Below, in pieces: positions 27,615 to 58,155 of a stretch of 62,116 nucleotides of DNA; position 1 is the stretch's first letter; each line of letters begins with the position of its first letter. The notes below the pieces were generated by a model. It did not search any database and was not told where the DNA came from. It saw only the letters and a list, made by a program, of their open reading frames with translations. Source of the stretch: Chloroflexota bacterium (GTDB lineage Bacteria > Chloroflexota > Anaerolineae > Anaerolineales > VGOW01); the NCBI GenBank assembly GCA_016197225.1, contig JACPWC010000069.1:1-62116 (forward strand), written 5' to 3'. The position numbers and the translations under genes are program-made.

Positions 27615-28657
27615 ACGAGACCACGACTTCCGTCGAGCGAGTCCGCACGGTGCTGAGCGGCGGCCTCCCCGACCGCGTGCCGGTGGATTTGCACAACTTC
27701 ATGATGACGGCCCAGGCCTCCGGGATGCCGTTCCCCGAATATTTCCAGAACGGCGAGGCGATGGCCGAGGGCCAAATCAAAGCCTGGCGCGAGTTCGGGC
27801 ACGACGTGCTGCTGTTGGAGAACGGCACGGCGGCGCTGGCGCAGGCGTGCGGCGTGGGCGTGGAATTTCTCACCGAGAGCGCGCCAGTGTCTTTCGTGCC
27901 GGTCATCAATAGTCTTGAAGACATAGATAAACTGCGGATGCCCGATCCCTATAAAGACCATCCCTTGCCTGAATTGTTGAAGACCACGCGGATTGTGGTG
28001 CAGGAAATCGGCGACAAGGCGTTCATCATTGGCCGCGCCGACCAGGGGCCCTTTTCACTGGCGAGCATGATCCTGGGCATGGTGGAATTCCTGGCCGAGA
28101 TTGGCGAGGCGGAGAAGCAGGCATTGCTTCACCGCTTGCTGGAGTTTTCGCTGGAGGCTTGCTATCGCTACGCTGTGGCGCAGATGGAGCAGGGCGCGCA
28201 CATGACTTCCATCGGCGAATCACTCGCGGGGCCGGATGTCTGCTCGCCCAAAGTTTACCGGGAGTACGAATGGCCTTATGCCAAACGGCTGGTTGACCGG
28301 CTGAGGGAGAAGAACATCCCCCTGGCCTATCACATCTGCGGCAACGCCACGCCGATTGTGAAGGAGATGGCCGAGACGGGCGCGGCAGTTCTCGAACTGG
28401 ATTACAAAGTGGACCTTCATCAAGTCAAAGAAGCGACGCGCGGCAAGACGACCGTCTTAGGCCCGATTGATCCCAGCGGCGTCATGGCTTTGGGCACGCC
28501 GGAACTGGTGACCGAGAAATGCCGGGAGGCGATAGAGGTTCTGGGGCCAGGCGGCGGGCTGATTTTGGGGCCGGGTTGCGCGCTGCCGCCGCTGACGCCA
28601 CCGGAAAACGTCCATGCCATGATTGAAACGGCGCGCCACTATGGTCGTTACATCTGA
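27611..28657 (+). CDS. URO-D family corrinoid methyltransferase homologue
   Basis: 348 aa. Zinc-type residues are present: YHICGNAT (about 237-244) and LGPGC (about 321). It also has DPSGVMALGTPE and a clear family opening (VERVRTVLSGGLPDRVPVDLHNFM). It is the closest paralogue of the 14167 product. Two genes before the corrinoid protein, it is the best candidate in the window for the enzyme that moves a methyl group between a donor and the corrinoid. It overlaps both neighbours (ATGA at its start; A shared at its end). Confidence 0.87.
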   Translation: MNETTTSVERVRTVLSGGLPDRVPVDLHNFMMTAQASGMPFPEYFQNGEAMAEGQIKAWREFGHDVLLLENGTAALAQACGVGVEFLTESAPVSFVPVINSLEDIDKLRMPDPYKDHPLPELLKTTRIVVQEIGDKAFIIGRADQGPFSLASMILGMVEFLAEIGEAEKQALLHRLLEFSLEACYRYAVAQMEQGAHMTSIGESLAGPDVCSPKVYREYEWPYAKRLVDRLREKNIPLAYHICGNATPIVKEMAETGAAVLELDYKVDLHQVKEATRGKTTVLGPIDPSGVMALGTPELVTEKCREAIEVLGPGGGLILGPGCALPPLTPPENVHAMIETARHYGRYI

Positions 28658-38744: not shown

Positions 38745-39482
38745 GTGCGCCTTTTCATCTTTGACGACTATCAGGCCCTGAGCCGCGCCGGGGCCGCCCT
38801 GGTGGCCGAGGTGGTGGCCGCCCGGCCTACCGCCGCGCTGGTGCTGGCCACTGGCGTCACCCCCATGGGGCTGTATCAGGAACTGGCCGAAAGGCGAGAC
38901 CGCGGCGCCTTCGACACTTCACAGCTTCGCATTTTTCAACTGGACGAATATCTGGGCTTGGGGCCTGACGACCAGCGATCACTATTTCTTTGGATGAAGC
39001 GCGCTGTCTTGGCTCCTTGGGCGATAACACCGGCCAATGTCGCGCGCTTGCCCGGCAACAGTTCCGAGCCCCAAGTTGCCTGTCGCGTTTATGACCGTGC
39101 CATAGAAGCAGTGGGTGGGTTCGACCTCGCTGTGCTCGGCTTAGGGTCGAACGGCCATTTGGGCTTTAACGAGCCGCCCGCTGACCCAACATCACGCACC
39201 CACATAGTTGCCTTGACCGAGGCGAGTGTTGAAAGTAATGCGCGCTACTGGGGTGGGCGCGACCAGGTTCCTCGCCAGGCATTAACGGTCGGCTTGGCCT
39301 GGCTGTTGGCCGCGCGCCACATTCTGCTGGTAGTCTCTGGCGAACACAAGCGGGCTATCCTCCGGCGCGTGGTCGAAGGGCCAGTCAGCCCAGAGACGCC
39401 TGCTTCGTATTTACAAAAGGCGGCCAATGTGACGGTGATTGCAGATAAAGCGGCGTGGGGTGACATCACGCAGGTCACATGA
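38745..39482 (+). CDS. Glucosamine-6-phosphate deaminase/isomerase-like protein (NagB family)
   Basis: 245 aa from GTG 38745, 6 nt after iolB. It has FQLDEYLGL (catalytic-type Asp) and LGLGSNGHLGFNEPPADP, where the His and Glu of NagB are kept and the first acidic residue is Asn, as in a subset of the family. RAILRRVVEGPVSPETPAS is typical of the C-terminus. An amino-sugar deaminase directly following iolB is unusual; deamination of an amino-cyclitol-derived phosphate or simple linkage to amino-sugar use are both open. Confidence 0.85.
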   Translation: MRLFIFDDYQALSRAGAALVAEVVAARPTAALVLATGVTPMGLYQELAERRDRGAFDTSQLRIFQLDEYLGLGPDDQRSLFLWMKRAVLAPWAITPANVARLPGNSSEPQVACRVYDRAIEAVGGFDLAVLGLGSNGHLGFNEPPADPTSRTHIVALTEASVESNARYWGGRDQVPRQALTVGLAWLLAARHILLVVSGEHKRAILRRVVEGPVSPETPASYLQKAANVTVIADKAAWGDITQVT

Positions 39483-39879
39483 ATTACTCACAATAGAACT
39501 GCCGGAATTGGCTATTATTGATCAGGCAACATTCGATGCAGCACAAAAGCGACATGCGAAGAATAGAGCGAGAGCCAGCCGTAATCGCAAGCGCGAATAC
39601 CTTTTAGCCGGCCACATACAGTGTATTTGCAATAAAGCAATGTGCGGTAGAACTGCGATAAAAAAGGGTTGCCCAACACGCGCTTATTATAGGTGCGCCG
39701 ATGAGGTCAGAGGTAGACATTTGCGAAGATGCCGGGAACGAGAAATTAGAGCGGATGTTGCTGACCCAATAGTTTGGGAGTGGACGGGGGCAATACTGTT
39801 CAATGAGCGAGTGAAAGCACAAAGAAAGTTACGAAGCTTCTATCTCTGTATAAGCTGGGATATTACATCCTGTTTATAG
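39481..39879 (+). pseudogene. Serine recombinase, C-terminal fragment
   Basis: The frame from about 39481 reads IDQATFDAAQKRHAKNRARASRNRKREYLLAGHIQC, then ICNKAMCGR, a Tyr-Tyr-Arg-Cys pair and a second Cys: the zinc beta-ribbon and coil region of large serine recombinases. The catalytic domain is missing and there is no independent start (the frame enters from the deaminase gene). The stretch is more AT-rich than its neighbours, consistent with foreign origin. The last 20 codons are not recognisable. Confidence 0.75.
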
Positions 39880-40069
39880 CGCTTGCTAGTCTAATCGGCG
39901 AGTTGCCTTACCCGAAATGAGCCACAGGCTCATCCCCACTTGGGGATCACCCCAAGATTTCTGCATTCATCACAACAAAGGGGCGAACAACAGGGGCAGG
40001 CGGAGCGCGTGTTGACCGCCGTTGACTGTCACCGGCTAACCCTCAGCCTGATTTTCCCAGGGATGTGAA

Positions 40070-40234
40070 TGCACCGTCGAGCCAGTCATTGGCATCATCA
40101 AAGAAGTGCTGGACTTTCGGCAGTTCTCCTTGCGCGGCCTGGCGGCCGCAACCAGTGAGTGGTGCTTGGTGTGTTTGGCCTACAACCTGAAACGGTTGCA
40201 TATCTTGTGGCCCGCCTTAGGGAGGTGGCTTTAA
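40070..40234 (+). mobile_element. Transposase C-terminal remnant (IS1182-like)
   Basis: The frame beginning TGC at 40070 reads TVEPVIGIIKEVLDFRQFSL, then RGLAAATSEWCLVCLAYNLK, and ends at TAA 40232-40234. This is the conserved tail of DDE transposases of the IS1182/IS4-like group (FGxIK..GFRQF.LRG...V..EW.LVCLAYN). No catalytic core or inverted repeat is left. 39880-40069 before it and 40235-40360 after it hold no gene I can recognise; both probably belong to the same debris. Confidence 0.72.
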
Positions 40235-40360
40235 CACGCCTGCTGACTGAAAAAAGAGTAGCCACCTGAGTTCCAGAGCGTGAAATGAGATCCAAACGAG
40301 GCTGATCGCCTTAGCGAAGTTCACTTGTTCCCGCTCCGAGACTTTCTCTCCGACAAACTG

Positions 40361-40733
40361 CTAGAGCCTATCCAGTTCATAGAAGCGCCAAATGGCCTGT
40401 TTTAGAATCCCGGCATTGCTTTCAATCTCTAACTTGGCCTCCTGCACGTTTTCGACCGTCCGGCGGTTGATATTCGCGCCCATCATTCGCACGACGATCG
40501 GGTTGAGCGCATCCATCACCGCGCTGATGAGCGCGTTCACCAAGCGCATGTGTTCGAGCAGAAGCACTTGCCCGCCGGGGCGGACGACGCGCGCCAATTC
40601 ACGCAAACCGAGAACATGGTCGGGCACAGAGCAAAAGACGAAGATGGCAACGGCGGTGTCAAAGGTGTGGCCGGGGAAATCGAGCGCTTGGGCGTCGCCG
40701 AGTTGTAGATCAGCAGTGAGGCCGAGTCTTCCT
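40361..40733 (-). pseudogene. SAM-dependent methyltransferase, truncated at the 5' side
   Basis: On the minus strand, LTADLQLGDAQALDFPGHTF, the FDTAVAIFVFCSVPD segment and LARVVRPGGQVLLLEHMR are the second half of a class I methyltransferase (motifs II-III), running to a normal end at 40361-40363. A TGA precedes it at about 40731, and the SAM-binding GxGxG part is absent. A GTG at 40627 could start a short product. It is probably a remnant. 40734-41050 holds no recognised gene. Confidence 0.72.
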
Positions 40734-41052
40734 CAACCCGCTTCGATTTGGTGAAGGTGCGGCGCTCACGCCTCAAGTGCCAGCCGATTCTCCGAACGCC
40801 AAGCGGGCGCATCTCCAAGTGAACAATTTGATGCTGAATATCGGGGCACAAAGCGCAGACAAAGCGAATAGTGTTGAGTTGAAGATGTGGGAGGAGGCGC
40901 AGAGTGATGAATAGAAAGCTGTCTGACTTTGCCAGGTTGAGAACAGGCTTGCCTGACTTTCCCTCATCGTGTATCATGCCAACCATAGTCAGGGAGCGAG
41001 TTATCACACTCCCAATTAACAACCTTATCTCGCCAGGTTCTTTTGAACCGGC

Positions 41053-41090
41053 GACCGCAAGGCTACTCAAAAATGAAGGGCCTTGCGGTC
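41053..41090. repeat. 11-bp hairpin before the tRNA fragment
   Basis: GACCGCAAGGC (41053-41063) and GCCTTGCGGTC (41080-41090) can pair perfectly around a 16-nt loop. There is no clear T-run. It lies just upstream of the truncated tRNA and could be a recombination or transcription-stop structure. Confidence 0.55.
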
Positions 41091-41115
41091 TATAGTGTGC
41101 AATGTAGAATTGTAG

Positions 41116-41158
41116 CTCATAACCCGGAGGTCGCAGGTTCGAATCCTGCCCCCGCTAC
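41116..41158 (+). tRNA. 3' half of a Met-type (CAT) tRNA gene
   Basis: CTCATAACCC (anticodon loop CTCATAA with CAT at 41118-41120), then GGAGGTCGCAGGTTCGAATC and CTGCCCCCGCTAC give an anticodon loop, variable loop, T-arm (GCAGG TTCGAAT CCTGC) and 3' acceptor strand. The D-arm and 5' acceptor strand (expected G-rich) are absent upstream. This is the form left when an element integrates in a tRNA gene. It cannot be a working tRNA as it stands. Confidence 0.7.
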
Positions 41159-41165
41159 TGACAGA

Positions 41166-41200
41166 CACCGCAGTCTCACAAAATGAGACTGCGGTGTTTT
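41166..41200 (+). terminator. Rho-independent terminator after the tRNA fragment
   Basis: CACCGCAGTCTCA (41166-41178) pairs perfectly with TGAGACTGCGGTG (41184-41196) over a 5-nt loop and is followed by TTTT. It is the strongest terminator in the window and fits a tRNA transcript end. Confidence 0.88.
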
Positions 41201-41674
41201 GTTGTCCAACGCCATCCCCAGTTTCCTGCAACATCTATCGGCCGAAGCCTTCAGCGGTTGCCAGACCGACGCGGTGCGCTAGGCGAAAGCCGCGCCGGTC
41301 TCGGCTCCAGGCTCGTTTCGGCTAACTGCCCGACGCGCTCTCATGAAGCAACTTCAGATGGTAATTTGAGGGCCTGATATTCAACTGCATTCTTATTATG
41401 CCGAAGCGGACAACTTGCTGTGAACTTGACATGCATTTGTAATCCAACTCGTGGCATTTGCCTATGGTGTTTGGGTATACGAATCTCATACAATCAGCGT
41501 TTCCCGGCTTCACTGGTGATGGCCGCCGGAGCAATTTTGATCGCAGTGTAACCTTCGTTGCGCCTCTGTACGTCTCTCTTTGTTATTTGCCCGGAAGCCC
41601 TACATTTGGTACGATGCGTGGAGACTTATCTTTGTTTTGCATCTGCTGCATAGACTCTTGTTCAGGAGCATCTT
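41201..41674. other. 474-bp stretch without a recognised gene
   Basis: I see no coding sequence with family features. TTGACA at about 41428 has no matching -10 at normal spacing. The region probably carries the promoter of the two-component genes, but I cannot place it. Confidence 0.5.
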
Positions 41675-42361
41675 ATGGCTGAAATAGACAACTCCATCCG
41701 TGTCATCCTTGCCGACGATCACGCCGTTGTTCGCAAAGGCATCCGCGAGTTTCTTGAAATAGGGGGCTGGGTCACCGTCGTCGCCGAGGCCTCAGACGGA
41801 TTGGAGGCGATGCGCCTCATCCGTGAACATCGCCCCGACGTCGCCGTGCTGGATATTCAAATGCCAGGGCAATCAGGCGTCGAAGTGACTCGCGCTATTC
41901 GCGCCGAGCGCCTGCCGGTCGGGGTGCTTATCCTCACCGCCTTCGACGATCCGCCTTACGTGAAAGCCGTCCTGCAAGCCGGGGCCAATGGCTATGTGCT
42001 TAAAACCGCCGACGCCGGCGAGATCGTACAGGCAGTGCAGGCTGTTCATGAAGGCCAATCGGTGCTTGATCCGGCGATTGCGCGCAAACTCATGTCTCAA
42101 CTCTCGGAGCCGGGTACATCTCGGCTAGCTACAAACGTCGAGGCATTGACTGAGCGCGAACTGGAAGTGCTGCGCCTTGCCGCCAGGGGCCACACCAACA
42201 AGGCCATCGGCGTAGAATTATCAATCAGCGACCGGACGGTGCAGGGCCATCTTGCCAAAATCTATGCCAAGTTGGGCGCGGCCAGCCGCACCGAAGCCGT
42301 GATGCGCGCCGTCACGCTGGGCTGGATTCCGCCCGCCATCGGCGAACCCGGCCCAGAATAA
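41675..42361 (+). CDS. NarL/FixJ-type response regulator
   Basis: 228 aa. Receiver domain: IRVILADDHAVVRKGIREF (acidic pocket), VAVLDIQMPG with the phospho-acceptor Asp (about 60), LILTAFDD and VLKTADAGEIVQA. LuxR-type helix-turn-helix: LTERELEVLRLAARGHTNKAIGVELSISDRTVQGHLAKIYAKLG (about 160-204). It is encoded 9 nt before a sensor kinase and is its likely partner. No target is visible. It lies at the edge of the copper island but is not clearly part of it. Confidence 0.95.
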   Translation: MAEIDNSIRVILADDHAVVRKGIREFLEIGGWVTVVAEASDGLEAMRLIREHRPDVAVLDIQMPGQSGVEVTRAIRAERLPVGVLILTAFDDPPYVKAVLQAGANGYVLKTADAGEIVQAVQAVHEGQSVLDPAIARKLMSQLSEPGTSRLATNVEALTERELEVLRLAARGHTNKAIGVELSISDRTVQGHLAKIYAKLGAASRTEAVMRAVTLGWIPPAIGEPGPE

Positions 42362-44278: not shown

Positions 44279-44296
44279 TGCATAAAGGTGACGGCC

Positions 44297-44689
44297 ATGA
44301 ACGAGAGCCTCGTTTTCAACTTCGACAGCGAAACCGCCATCAAAGCCGTGATGACAACCCTTGCCCGACGTGGTTTGTATGTTATCCGAAGTTTTGACTT
44401 GCAGTCGGCCCTCGGCGCTCACGGCGGTTGCGAATGTCCTCATCATGGCACTGCCCAGTGCAATTGCCAGTTCGTAGTGCTGCTCGTGTACGGTGAGGCC
44501 GCCGAGCCGGTGGTCATCACAACGCACAGCCGCGACAACCGGACTGAGGCCCGGATCGTCCACGATGCGGCGACTATCCCCGACCCGCGCTTGGCTGGGG
44601 AAGTGATGGCCGCCCTCGTGGAGGCGGCCATCATGTTGCCGATGGCCTCGTCTACTGTGGAAAGGAATTCGTATGACCAGCATTGCTAA
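44297..44689 (+). CDS. Conserved small protein with Cys/His cluster, before CopA
   Basis: 130 aa from ATG 44297, with AAAGG ahead. The centre carries [17 protein letters not shown], that is Cys-x-Cys-x2-His-His-x4-Cys-x-Cys, a likely soft-metal (copper) site. The first part ([22 protein letters not shown]) recalls DUF302-type alpha/beta folds. An alternative GTG at 44288 adds three residues. It overlaps the CopA start by 17 nt, so a copper sensor, chaperone or buffer role is likely, but I do not know a named family member. Confidence 0.72.
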
Positions 44690-56140: not shown

Positions 56141-56695
56141 ATGAACAACAACGTCAAATTCATTGCTAAGGGATTGCTGGCCCTCGTCGTCGCGCTGATG
56201 TTGAGCGCGTGCAGTGTTGCGCAGCCTCTTGCCAATTATCAACCGACTCCCGCGCCGGGCTACAGTTATGGGTCGGGCGGCATGATGGATGGTGGGGGAA
56301 TGATGGGTGGCGGACACATGGGCGGTGGGATGATGGGAGGAGGGGGGATGATGGGCGGGTATGGCTATGGTCAATCTGCCCCAACCGCCGTGCCGACACC
56401 TGTAGGTGCGACCCCTGTTCCAGTGGACGAGGAAATTCAAATCACCGCTCTCAATCTGCGCTTCACCCCGGCGGAGATCGTCGTCAGACCCGGCGAGACC
56501 GTGCGCTTCGTGGTGACCAACGACGACCCGTATCTGCACAACTTCGTCAGCCAGGAGGCGGGCATCCCCTTCCTGAACCTGCCTGGCAACACTACGCAAA
56601 CTGTAACCTGGACAGCACCTGCCGCCGAGGGCACTTACACGGCGCTCTGCACACTCCATCCGGGGATGGGCCTCTCCATCAGCGTCAAAGATTAA
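56141..56695 (+). CDS. Plastocyanin-like cupredoxin lipoprotein with Met/Gly linker
   Basis: 184 aa from ATG 56141. Lipobox MLSAC (Cys about 24), then a linker very rich in Met and Gly (MMDGGGMMGGGHMGGGMMGG), then a cupredoxin domain with His in DPYLHNF and Cys-x3-His-x3-Met-type ligands in TALCTLHPGMG. The Met-rich linker could catch Cu(I) and the domain hold it outside the membrane. It is under promoter B. Confidence 0.92.
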   Translation: MNNNVKFIAKGLLALVVALMLSACSVAQPLANYQPTPAPGYSYGSGGMMDGGGMMGGGHMGGGMMGGGGMMGGYGYGQSAPTAVPTPVGATPVPVDEEIQITALNLRFTPAEIVVRPGETVRFVVTNDDPYLHNFVSQEAGIPFLNLPGNTTQTVTWTAPAAEGTYTALCTLHPGMGLSISVKD

Positions 56696-57333: not shown

Positions 57334-58155
57334 ATGACCGCTACTCATATTCGCCGCATCGCCGTCTTCTCTGCGCTCAGCGCGATGGCTCTTGGCGCAA
57401 TCGCCCTTACCGGCTTCTGGCATCCCAACGCGCCTGCCGAGGCGATGCAGAGGTATCTGCCTCAAATCACGCTCCCGACGGTGGTCGTCGCCGGGGTTGT
57501 TGACGGCATCAATCCGTGCGCCTTCACCGTGCTGTTGCTGTTCATCACCGCCCTGCTCACCACCCTCCAGGCTGGAGAACAAAGTGTGAACACTCTCCGC
57601 TTGCGGATGTTGGGCCTCGGGTCAATCTACATTGCGGCAGTTTTCCTCACCTATTTGGCGCTTGGCGTTGGCTTGCTCAAATCGCTGGATTTCTTCACCC
57701 GGCAACACGTTCCGGCTCGCTTCGGCGCGCTCCTGGCGATTCTGTTTGGGTTGTGGATGTTGAAAGATTACTTTCTGCCTGAGCTGGGCTGGCGGTTGCA
57801 AGCGCCGGGAAAGGTGGGCGAGATTGCGCGGCAATCGGCAAAGAAGGCCACCATTCCGGCGTTGATCGTCGGCGGTTTTCTCATCGGCCTGTGCACCGTG
57901 CCGTGCAGTGGGGCGGTCTATCTCGGCGTGCTCAGCTTGCTGGCGTTGCAACCTACGGCGCTGTTGGGCTACAGCTATCTTGTGCTGTACAACGTCGTAT
58001 TCATCCTGCCGCTGGTCGCCATTCTGCTAGCGGCTTCAGCTCGCCCCACGCTCAACCGGCTCGCCCATTGGAATTTGCATCACAAGGAGTGGGTGCGGCT
58101 GGTTCTCGGCGGCGGTGTGGTGGCGATGGGATTATTGATATTGGCGACAGTGTGA
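57334..58155 (+). CDS. CcdA/DsbD-family thiol-redox membrane protein
   Basis: 273 aa, six or seven TM helices. GVVDGINPCAFTVLLLFITALL and GLCTVPCSGAVYLGVLSL have the single conserved Cys-Pro pair in each half (NPCA, VPCS), as in CcdA. Electron transfer across the membrane to extracytoplasmic thiols would keep Cys of the neighbouring cupredoxins reduced. It is encoded 3 nt after one of them. Confidence 0.88.
   Translation: MTATHIRRIAVFSALSAMALGAIALTGFWHPNAPAEAMQRYLPQITLPTVVVAGVVDGINPCAFTVLLLFITALLTTLQAGEQSVNTLRLRMLGLGSIYIAAVFLTYLALGVGLLKSLDFFTRQHVPARFGALLAILFGLWMLKDYFLPELGWRLQAPGKVGEIARQSAKKATIPALIVGGFLIGLCTVPCSGAVYLGVLSLLALQPTALLGYSYLVLYNVVFILPLVAILLAASARPTLNRLAHWNLHHKEWVRLVLGGGVVAMGLLILATV

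Follow-up and report, generated by a model that had tools for sequence, protein, structure and literature searches.

A displaced 3' half of an initiator tRNA-Met gene probably marks the right end of an integrative island in an uncultured Chloroflexota bacterium

Insertion of mobile islands at tRNA genes is a well-known route by which bacteria gain new gene sets, and several integrative elements may stand in tandem at a single tRNA gene. The Islander approach maps such genomic islands, and a crossover in the anticodon loop is its class A; it asks for an intact tRNA gene in the same replicon as a cognate fragment, an integrase within the island, a 3' end fragment downstream of the tRNA gene in the same orientation, and a length of 2–200 kb, and a table lists 125 'Tandems ≥2' (PMC4383910). 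The locus described here resembles such islands in several respects: a tyrosine integrase accompanies the intact tRNA gene at one end, a displaced 3' fragment lies at the other, the predicted crossover falls in the anticodon loop, and each island of a tandem array has a single fragment and a single integrase; it differs in that the two ends lie on different contigs and in that the older tandem member is gutted.

The DNA originates from an uncultured Chloroflexota bacterium (Anaerolineales; VGOW01), the genome of which is given as 97.95% complete. The window is the whole stretch analysed, positions 1–62,116 of contig JACPWC010000069.1 (C69). Codes with C denote contigs (C77, C14 and C61 belong to the source genome), codes with G other genomes, and codes with L loci. 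The integrase of the candidate island, int1, is located on C77 together with the intact tRNA gene. Intact gene and fragment are thus on different contigs in the source genome, and on one contig in G038 and G043; orientation and order of the fragment fit the layout of a tRNA island if C77 precedes C69. The features are as follows.

38745–39482, + strand: glucosamine-6-phosphate isomerase/6-phosphogluconolactonase family gene (Pfam Glucosamine_iso, E 3.3e-26, nearly full length)
39481–39876, + strand: C-terminal part of a 5'-truncated large serine recombinase (PHROG 95, profile positions 341–445 of 651, E 2.5e-15)
40068–40364, + strand: right-hand remnant (~300 bp) of an insertion sequence, comprising a transposase tail (40076–40234) and a terminal repeat (40346–40364)
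40441–40724, − strand: 5'-truncated UbiE-like methyltransferase fragment (75% DNA identity to G002:C31:27226–27509)
41043–41117, + strand: predicted right terminus of the island (attR arm of P' type), reaching to the crossover in the anticodon loop (right-end profile, 41.0 bits)
41047–41063, − strand: inverted copy of a putative arm-type site for the integrase (motif with 2 mismatches)
41080–41096, + strand: direct copy of a putative arm-type site for the integrase (motif with 2 mismatches)
41115–41161, + strand: attachment core, the 3' part of an initiator-type tRNA-Met(CAT) (41115–41158) plus 3 nt (47-nt exact match to C77:32–78)
41164–41199, + strand: terminator-like hairpin 3' of the half tRNA (inverted repeat in the sequence, self-match 41165–41197)
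41197–41255, + strand: int1-type tyrosine integrase stub, first codons without the start codon (81% over 59 nt to C77:187–245, inside int1)
41263–41304, + strand: palindromic intergenic repeat (87–93% matches at five other genomic places)
41429–41475, + strand: scrap of an int3 3' end (90% over 47 nt to C77:5434–5481)
41675–42361, + strand: response regulator (Response_reg and GerE), first gene of the two-component/copper block
C77:165–1157: int1, tyrosine integrase (Phage_integrase, E 5e-35)
C77:4519–5448: int3, third tyrosine recombinase of the C77 module

The int1 stub (41197–41255), the int3 scrap (41429–41475) and the attachment-end sites (41043–41117) were absent from the first-pass annotation of this DNA.

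The half tRNA begins at the anticodon loop and is complete at its 3' end. Neither ARAGORN (whole window) nor Rfam (39000–42000) reported a tRNA, as is expected for half a gene. The first-pass annotation had read this half as a trace of site-specific integration, a reading under which an intact Met tRNA with the same 3' part and a direct repeat marking the other end should exist. Both were found: the intact initiator-type tRNA-Met(CAT) is located at C77:3–75 and matches the half exactly over 47 nt, and an integrase gene adjoins this repeat. The reading is thus supported by the intact copy, by the integrase and by the same layout in other genomes. Searches with a 27-nt core, and likewise with a 41-nt pattern, placed the tRNA 3' part at only two positions in the genome, of which a single one is a half tRNA. 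Hairpins comparable to that at 41164–41199 were also seen by eye behind the intact tRNA in C77 and in relatives. Fragments of tRNA genes are common, and the intact tRNA itself spans a break in the assembly, at which C14 and C77 are joined via a 63-nt contig overlap; the half might therefore be a pseudogene that arose by chance or duplication, or else a chimera made at a repeat during assembly. We consider this very improbable, since the flanking 75 nt match the right ends of other elements in register and the combination of a half tRNA with an integrase gene recurs in other genomes; moreover, the 47-nt repeat is shorter than the 63-nt contig overlap, which makes a join by the assembler at this point unlikely.

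On C77, int1 starts 89 bp behind the intact tRNA. Residues R175, H272, R275, H298 and Y307, which we take to be the catalytic residues, are invariant among 8 relatives. A second gene, int2, is convergent with int1, and int3 is followed by cargo genes. The features of the int1 family that are present here are a right end of ~75 nt with inverted sites abutting the anticodon loop, int1 ~90 bp behind tRNA-Met(CAT), and the convergent int2. All three integrases match PHROG 1 and 216 (phage integrase families), a property common to tyrosine-integrase prophages, and one relative of int1 (35%) was found in IMG/VR. Unlike in prophages, no structural phage gene was recognized among the eight C77 proteins scanned with Pfam, and no capsid, terminase or portal gene was noticed by eye among the open reading frames of C77 and of element A in G043. 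Genes for a relaxase or type IV secretion were likewise not found among the eight scanned C77 proteins.

A short arm motif is common to C77 and the window. At up to 2 mismatches it occurs at 5 sites genome-wide, three of which sit in the stretch that leads from the intact tRNA into the first codons of int1; the other two form the inverted pair just left of the half tRNA. At exactly 3 mismatches, 13 further genomic sites were obtained, and a reversed control motif yielded 6 sites at up to 3 mismatches. The common arm-type sites would bind the integrase. The likeness of the flanking DNA to other right ends was first spotted by eye with the window in view. A 75-nt profile was trained on nine right ends from seven other genomes, with the source genome excluded; G043 and G047 contributed two ends each, so that the nine are not all independent. 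L094 and L095 (nearly identical to L109) and L115 (decayed and retaining more of the tRNA) were dropped before training, and L087 and the window were held out. No offset had to be chosen, because the tRNA half fixes the register. The best match in the window was 41043–41117 with 41.0 bits (runner-up 10.8 bits; mean −45, sd 11.5). Leader regions near tRNA-Met in other genomes scored up to 25.5 bits, and thus only scores well above this value are specific; on leave-one-out, one of the nine training ends failed (G001, −3.4 bits). A free best-match comparison of right ends with leaders was given up in favour of the register-fixed profile, as it stayed at background level for most elements: the window reached 15/17, barely above its background (≤14 in 200 shuffles and 300 random stretches), and most other halves did not exceed theirs (8 random stretches each). 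Overall, the exact repeat, the arm sites and the profile match indicate that, as judged from the sequence, 41043–41161 is the right attachment end of an island that lies on its left (cyclitol) side.

The half tRNA is thus most probably (roughly 0.85) a 3' fragment of the initiator tRNA-Met gene that int1 recombination displaced to the right end (attR) of an island. We infer the event as follows: the island would have brought its own copy of the tRNA 3' part, and int1 would have recombined this copy with the tRNA gene at the anticodon loop. The full tRNA would thereby be restored at the left end of the island (C14–tRNA–C77), and the original 3' part would be pushed to the right end, window positions 41115–41161. 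With the island on the left of the half tRNA, its cargo would include the catabolic genes in the left part of the window, the last intact one being the isomerase-family gene at 38745–39482, a probable cargo gene.

C77 is likely the other end of this island, and the two contigs would then carry the two ends of one element of at least ~49.6 kb (8.5 + 41.1 kb) if they adjoin. The end of C77 shows no overlap with, or other link to, the start of C69, and tandem arrays with several islands occur in G043; the half tRNA could accordingly be a genuine right end of the same family that belongs to another island, with the C77 island ending in an unassembled or lost stretch. That the genome, at its given completeness, holds only one half tRNA, and that the arm motif found at both places is rare in the genome, makes such an arrangement unlikely, and we retain C77 and the window as probable parts of one island. 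In four genomes of another family, no neighbourhood with C77 cargo beside relatives of the first genes of the window was found. One C77 cargo gene has matches in 6 of the 201 genomes of the order, its own included (E 1e-40), and none at this threshold in four congeners. Some cyclitol genes have relatives of 73–76% in two congeners, which means that not all of the left set is foreign to the genus. Base composition, proposed in the first-pass annotation as a means to tell the flanks apart, did not convincingly separate the two sides: the GC content is 0.548–0.549 at 39–42 kb versus 0.61–0.65 at 29–39 kb and 0.57–0.62 at 41–48 kb, nearly equal lows (0.553–0.554) occur within the first 7 kb of the window, and the tetranucleotide deviation is modest (reference, 94 kb of the source genome).

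Between the isomerase gene and the half tRNA lies further debris. The first-pass annotation had described scraps of a recombinase, a transposase and a methyltransferase packed together with the half tRNA, and all four were located. The recombinase match, to a PHROG annotated as integrase (PHROG 95, presumably a serine recombinase family), spans 39439–39876 (+), and the fragment directly adjoins the stop codon of the isomerase gene; Pfam Recombinase remained below threshold (14.4 bits, cut-off 21.1). The zinc ribbon claimed for it is a run of cysteines seen by eye, with no zinc-ribbon model matching. The transposase tail (40076–40234, +) is the C-terminal end of DDE_Tnp_1_6 (E 1.6e-8); a copy of the same insertion sequence on C61 encodes a 457-residue transposase (DUF772, DDE_Tnp_1_6), and the remnant aligns to positions 1295–1483 and 1575–1601 of the 1615-bp stretch that bears it. 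The methyltransferase frame continues to a stop at 40361, with Pfam Ubie_methyltran matching 40364–40627 (−; E 1.4e-4, profile positions 130–180 of 233); its relative in G002 is a 240-residue frame, the 5' part of which is absent from the window fragment. No tie of these three scraps to the integration machinery was seen, and they are debris at the island edge. The serine-recombinase and insertion-sequence scraps were considered as makers of the junction and rejected, as neither touches the half tRNA.

To the right of the half tRNA, the int1 stub and the int3 scrap are read, from their similarity to C77, as relics of an older element that belonged to the same family. The newer element would have inserted in front of it, and a later deletion would have joined what was left to the two-component operon. 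A right end of the older element was not found in the tRNA-half searches of the genome. The palindromic repeat between stub and scrap is not island-specific; its five other copies are on C117, C75, C104 (twice) and C26, and it is also present in G001 and G002.

The older remains precede the two-component/copper block, cargo likewise follows int3 on C77, and G001 too has a half tRNA and an int1 stub ahead of genes of metal- or sulfide-related appearance (by eye), among them a relative of window 44288–44689. These observations would fit a block that is itself cargo of the older element, with both flanks acquired. We regard this as doubtful: the block is collinear, with gaps, with G002:C52 over ~25 kb (40 of 184 candidates scored), there is no further half tRNA on its right, and in three of the four congeners (G001, G002 and G003) the response-regulator gene is directly behind the gene for a membrane-type protein of ~260 residues that is 70–94% identical among them. 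In G004 only a tail resembling this gene precedes the regulator (by eye), and the gene was not found in the source genome (40 of 160 candidates scored; window and eight stretches). The DNA before the regulator in the congeners gave no significant match to the scar of the window (best E 0.014). For the comparisons of scar DNA, block collinearity and cyclitol genes with congeners, 7 or 40 candidates were scored per genome, and absences carry little weight. The congeners do not keep the window's gene order without an insertion; they show a different, scar-free junction. The block is, on this comparative evidence, probably native to the genus. Of the proposal that one or both flanking gene sets had been acquired, the left part stands, as probable cargo, and the right part probably does not.

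The same layout was found in other Chloroflexota. Eleven of the 14 named int1 loci are close (61–81%). Six of these eleven, from Chloroflexota MAGs, retain the N-terminus and upstream DNA, and in all six tRNA-Met lies 90–96 bp upstream, intact in four (L078, L079, L081, L082) and as a 3' half in two (L080, L083). An int2 gene is present at 8 of the 11 close loci (L078–L088) and an HTH gene at 5, with several loci cut by contig ends. On a single contig of G043 (C2), an intact tRNA with int1 is found at 28124, a half with int1 at 57786 and a half without int1 at 171943, an unbroken tandem array of 29.7 and 114 kb in which the intact tRNA differs from both halves in the T arm. G038:C410 carries an intact tRNA at 627 and a half at 56544. 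As in tandem arrays at tRNA genes, the half tRNA is followed by a second int1 gene or stub, which is expected when a new element inserts into the tRNA before the old one. The difference from known arrays lies in the Chloroflexota family with int1, int2 and an HTH/DUF5679 protein, which was not named in the literature searched (abstract starts). In the same search, which covered few subscription journals, no paper on tRNA islands of this group was named.

The kind of island is therefore ordinary, and the family is apparently undescribed. Tentatively, and at slightly less than even odds, we propose a family of integrative islands that is widespread in Anaerolineae-type Chloroflexota and targets the initiator tRNA-Met. 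It would combine a module of int1, convergent int2 and the HTH/DUF5679 protein with mirrored arm-type sites; one of these overlaps the start codon of int1, which may allow the integrase to control itself. At this one gene such islands would pile up into tandem archipelagos with catabolic, defence and metal genes. The locus provides a near-base boundary for a gene set that was probably gained laterally, in a group known mostly from metagenomes. The right-end profile could locate such islands elsewhere, even where the other end is on another contig, and the initiator tRNA gene is an integration site used repeatedly in this group.

The stretch 39481-41200 lies between a gene of the glucosamine-6-phosphate isomerase family, which ends at 39482 and is the final gene of the catabolic (cyclitol) cluster, and a response-regulator gene that starts at 41675. 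The first-pass annotation had read it as an old integration boundary, and all four remnants named there were recovered by PHROG or Pfam matches and, for the tRNA, by sequence identity.

Remnants within 39481-41200 of the window
Large serine recombinase, 5'-truncated: PHROG 95, E 2.5e-15; Pfam Recombinase just 14.4 bits
Insertion sequence, final ~300 bp, end at 40346-40364: DDE_Tnp_1_6 tail and terminal repeat
UbiE-like methyltransferase, 5'-truncated
tRNA, 3' half

Another copy of this insertion sequence, with a 457-aa transposase, is present on contig C61 of the same genome. The congener G004 has this insertion sequence too (L061, G004:C104, ~430-510); there it stops at CTAG, and what follows directly resembles the final bases of a tRNA-Met 3' end with its terminator, suggestive of insertion into the T arm of a half tRNA.

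The half tRNA is contained in a 47-nt block (41115-41161) that is 100% identical to positions 32-78 of another contig, C77. ARAGORN assigned an intact tRNA-Met(CAT) to C77:3-75, and an intact gene with the same 3' part, as sought from the first-pass annotation, is thus present. With three G-C pairs in its anticodon stem, it is of the initiator type. In the 4.8-Mb genome (126 contigs), a 27-nt tRNA core occurred only at these two sites with up to 3 mismatches, and a 41-nt tRNA pattern was likewise confined to them. Contigs C14 and C77 share a 63-nt overlap, between the end of the former and the start of the latter, which places the 5' flank of the intact tRNA on C14 and the 3' side on C77. The 47-nt repeat starts 1 base ahead of the 7-nt anticodon loop CTCATAA; crossover at this position corresponds to "class A" of Islander (PMC4383910).

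Behind the intact tRNA, C77 carries an integration module followed by cargo.

Genes on C77
int1, tyrosine recombinase, directly behind the intact tRNA: Phage_integrase, E 5e-35
int2, tyrosine recombinase, convergent to int1: Pfam E 1.2e-10
Small HTH/DUF5679 protein, behind the intact tRNA
426-aa protein: without Pfam match
int3, third tyrosine recombinase: Pfam 23.8 bits (cut-off 27.1); PHROG 1, E 3.5e-10
Cargo after int3: DHDPS-family aldolase, BNR-repeat protein and FCD/GntR regulator, the last cut by the contig end

Relatives of int1 turned up at 14 loci when the named genomes were scanned. Close relatives, of 61-81% identity, are at 11 of them (L078-L088), whose records all carry the titles Anaerolineales, Chloroflexi or Thermoflexales; the remaining three are distant (27-37%), and ARAGORN, run on one of these (L089), found no tRNA there. 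Viral contigs yielded a single int1 relative, of 35% identity. The N-terminus and upstream DNA are preserved in six of the 11 close loci (L078-L083), the other five being decayed or cut by a contig end. Upstream of int1 in these six lies a tRNA-Met, intact in four (L078, L079, L081, L082) and as a 3' half in two (L080, L083), at 90-96 bp from the int1 start; the gap is 89 bp in C77. Of the 11 close loci, 8 have a convergent int2 behind int1 (partial in one) and five have the HTH gene; L079, L081 and L087 have neither. In L112 (G046) and L117 (G047), an int3 relative, at 1-303 and 2357-2644 respectively, is located ~0.8-1.1 kb to the left of a tRNA half and points away from the half, and int3 may therefore be part of the right end in some elements.

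For the right end of the element, a 17-nt motif was taken from the intergenic DNA that separates the tRNA from int1; it has five sites genome-wide with up to 2 mismatches.

Sites of the 17-nt motif
C77: 84-100, 117-133, 169-185
Window: 41047-41063, 41080-41096

At 3 mismatches 13 more sites appeared; the reversed motif, as control, had 6 sites at up to 3 mismatches. The site at C77:169-185, a putative arm-type site, overlaps the first int1 codons (L011, G000:C77, 165-185); relatives have similar start regions, and the integrase could possibly repress its own gene. In other genomes, the 75-nt stretches on the left side of tRNA halves aligned without gaps, and a profile was built from 9 of these sequences, of seven genomes, the window's genome being left out. 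It scored 41.0 bits at 41043-41117, immediately 5' of CATAACCC, against 10.8 bits for the runner-up in the window, both strands counted (mean −45, standard deviation 11.5). On leave-one-out, 8 of the 9 training sequences remained positive (15.2 to 46.7 bits) and the one from congener G001 scored −3.4; the held-out locus L087 scored 27.4 bits. In 765 kb of DNA, the other sites above ~11 bits were nearly all leader regions beside tRNA-Met in other genomes, with scores of up to 25.5 bits; like sites in both arms would lead one to expect this. A profile-free comparison of right ends was only marginal for the window and showed no signal at most of the other halves. The element thus most likely ends at the half tRNA and extends to the left of it.

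The tRNA 3' part was matched in 15 of 17 genome handles (G026 and G045 are one genome), which had been picked for a prior tRNA or int1 match, so that the counts give no frequency for the order. Six genomes (G000, G038, G041, G043, G046, G047) have the intact gene together with at least one half. On a single 417-kb contig of G043, int1 accompanies both an intact tRNA at 28124 and a half at 57786, and a further half at 171943 lacks it; this arrangement would make two tandem islands, of 29.7 and 114 kb. The intact G043 tRNA differs from both halves in its T arm, as might be expected of an incoming element with a 3' part of its own. By eye, open reading frames of the first island (L126/L127, G043:C2, 28254-57349) include an apparent DnaB-like helicase, an actin/ParM-like protein and an apparent type III restriction-modification pair, which hints at a plasmid-like past. 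In G038, 55.9 kb separate the intact tRNA (two bases N) from the half on a single contig, and no int1 was found within the first 6 kb behind the intact tRNA.

Remains of an older element are visible to the right of the half tRNA. The first int1 codons, lacking the start codon, are matched at 41197-41255 (81% identity), and 41429-41475 matches the end of int3 (90%). Between them is a palindromic intergenic repeat (41263-41304, AGACCGACGCGGT...ACCGCGTCGGTCT) with five further sites in the genome and copies in the congeners G001 and G002. G001 likewise has a half tRNA followed by 30 int1 codons. A newer element would have entered the tRNA ahead of the older one, which would then have decayed to the int1 and int3 scraps; the right block would have become joined to the old element by deletion.

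The suggestion that one or both flanking gene sets were acquired probably holds for the left side, where the element most likely lies, and probably not for the right block. The order in congeners differs at this junction: in three of four (G001, G002, G003) the response regulator is preceded by the same ~260-aa membrane-type gene (70-94% identity among them), and in G004, by eye, by a resembling tail only. For the G002 region with this gene, the 40 of 160 candidates scored in the window's genome included no match at nucleotide level, and the encoded protein had none in the window and eight other stretches of that genome. The right block is collinear, with gaps, with G002:C52 over ~25 kb and, together with the congener junction, this makes it most simply native. 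On the left side, relatives of iolD (73-76%) and iolB (71-73%) occur in G003 and G004, with no collinear block seen there. At E 1e-40, none of the four congeners (two just 63 and 76% complete) matched the BNR gene of C77; among 201 genomes of the order it is present in 6, its own included, the other five all from one other family. A perfect 18-nt palindrome at 49-66 of the window, upstream of the first ABC-transporter gene, resembles an operator for a regulator of the FCD/GntR type, like the one cut at the end of C77; the 10-nt core of the palindrome is absent from C77.

No overlap was found between C77 and C69, the window's contig, nor were their cargoes found side by side among the relatives examined. 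Both diagnostic repeats, the half in the window and the intact gene on C77, are present; the stretch is an integration boundary at a tRNA site, and the initial reading was right in kind. Integration at tRNA sites is already well known as a kind of system; from a search of open-licence papers, in which no description was found, this particular family of int1 elements appears to be a new one to the literature covered.
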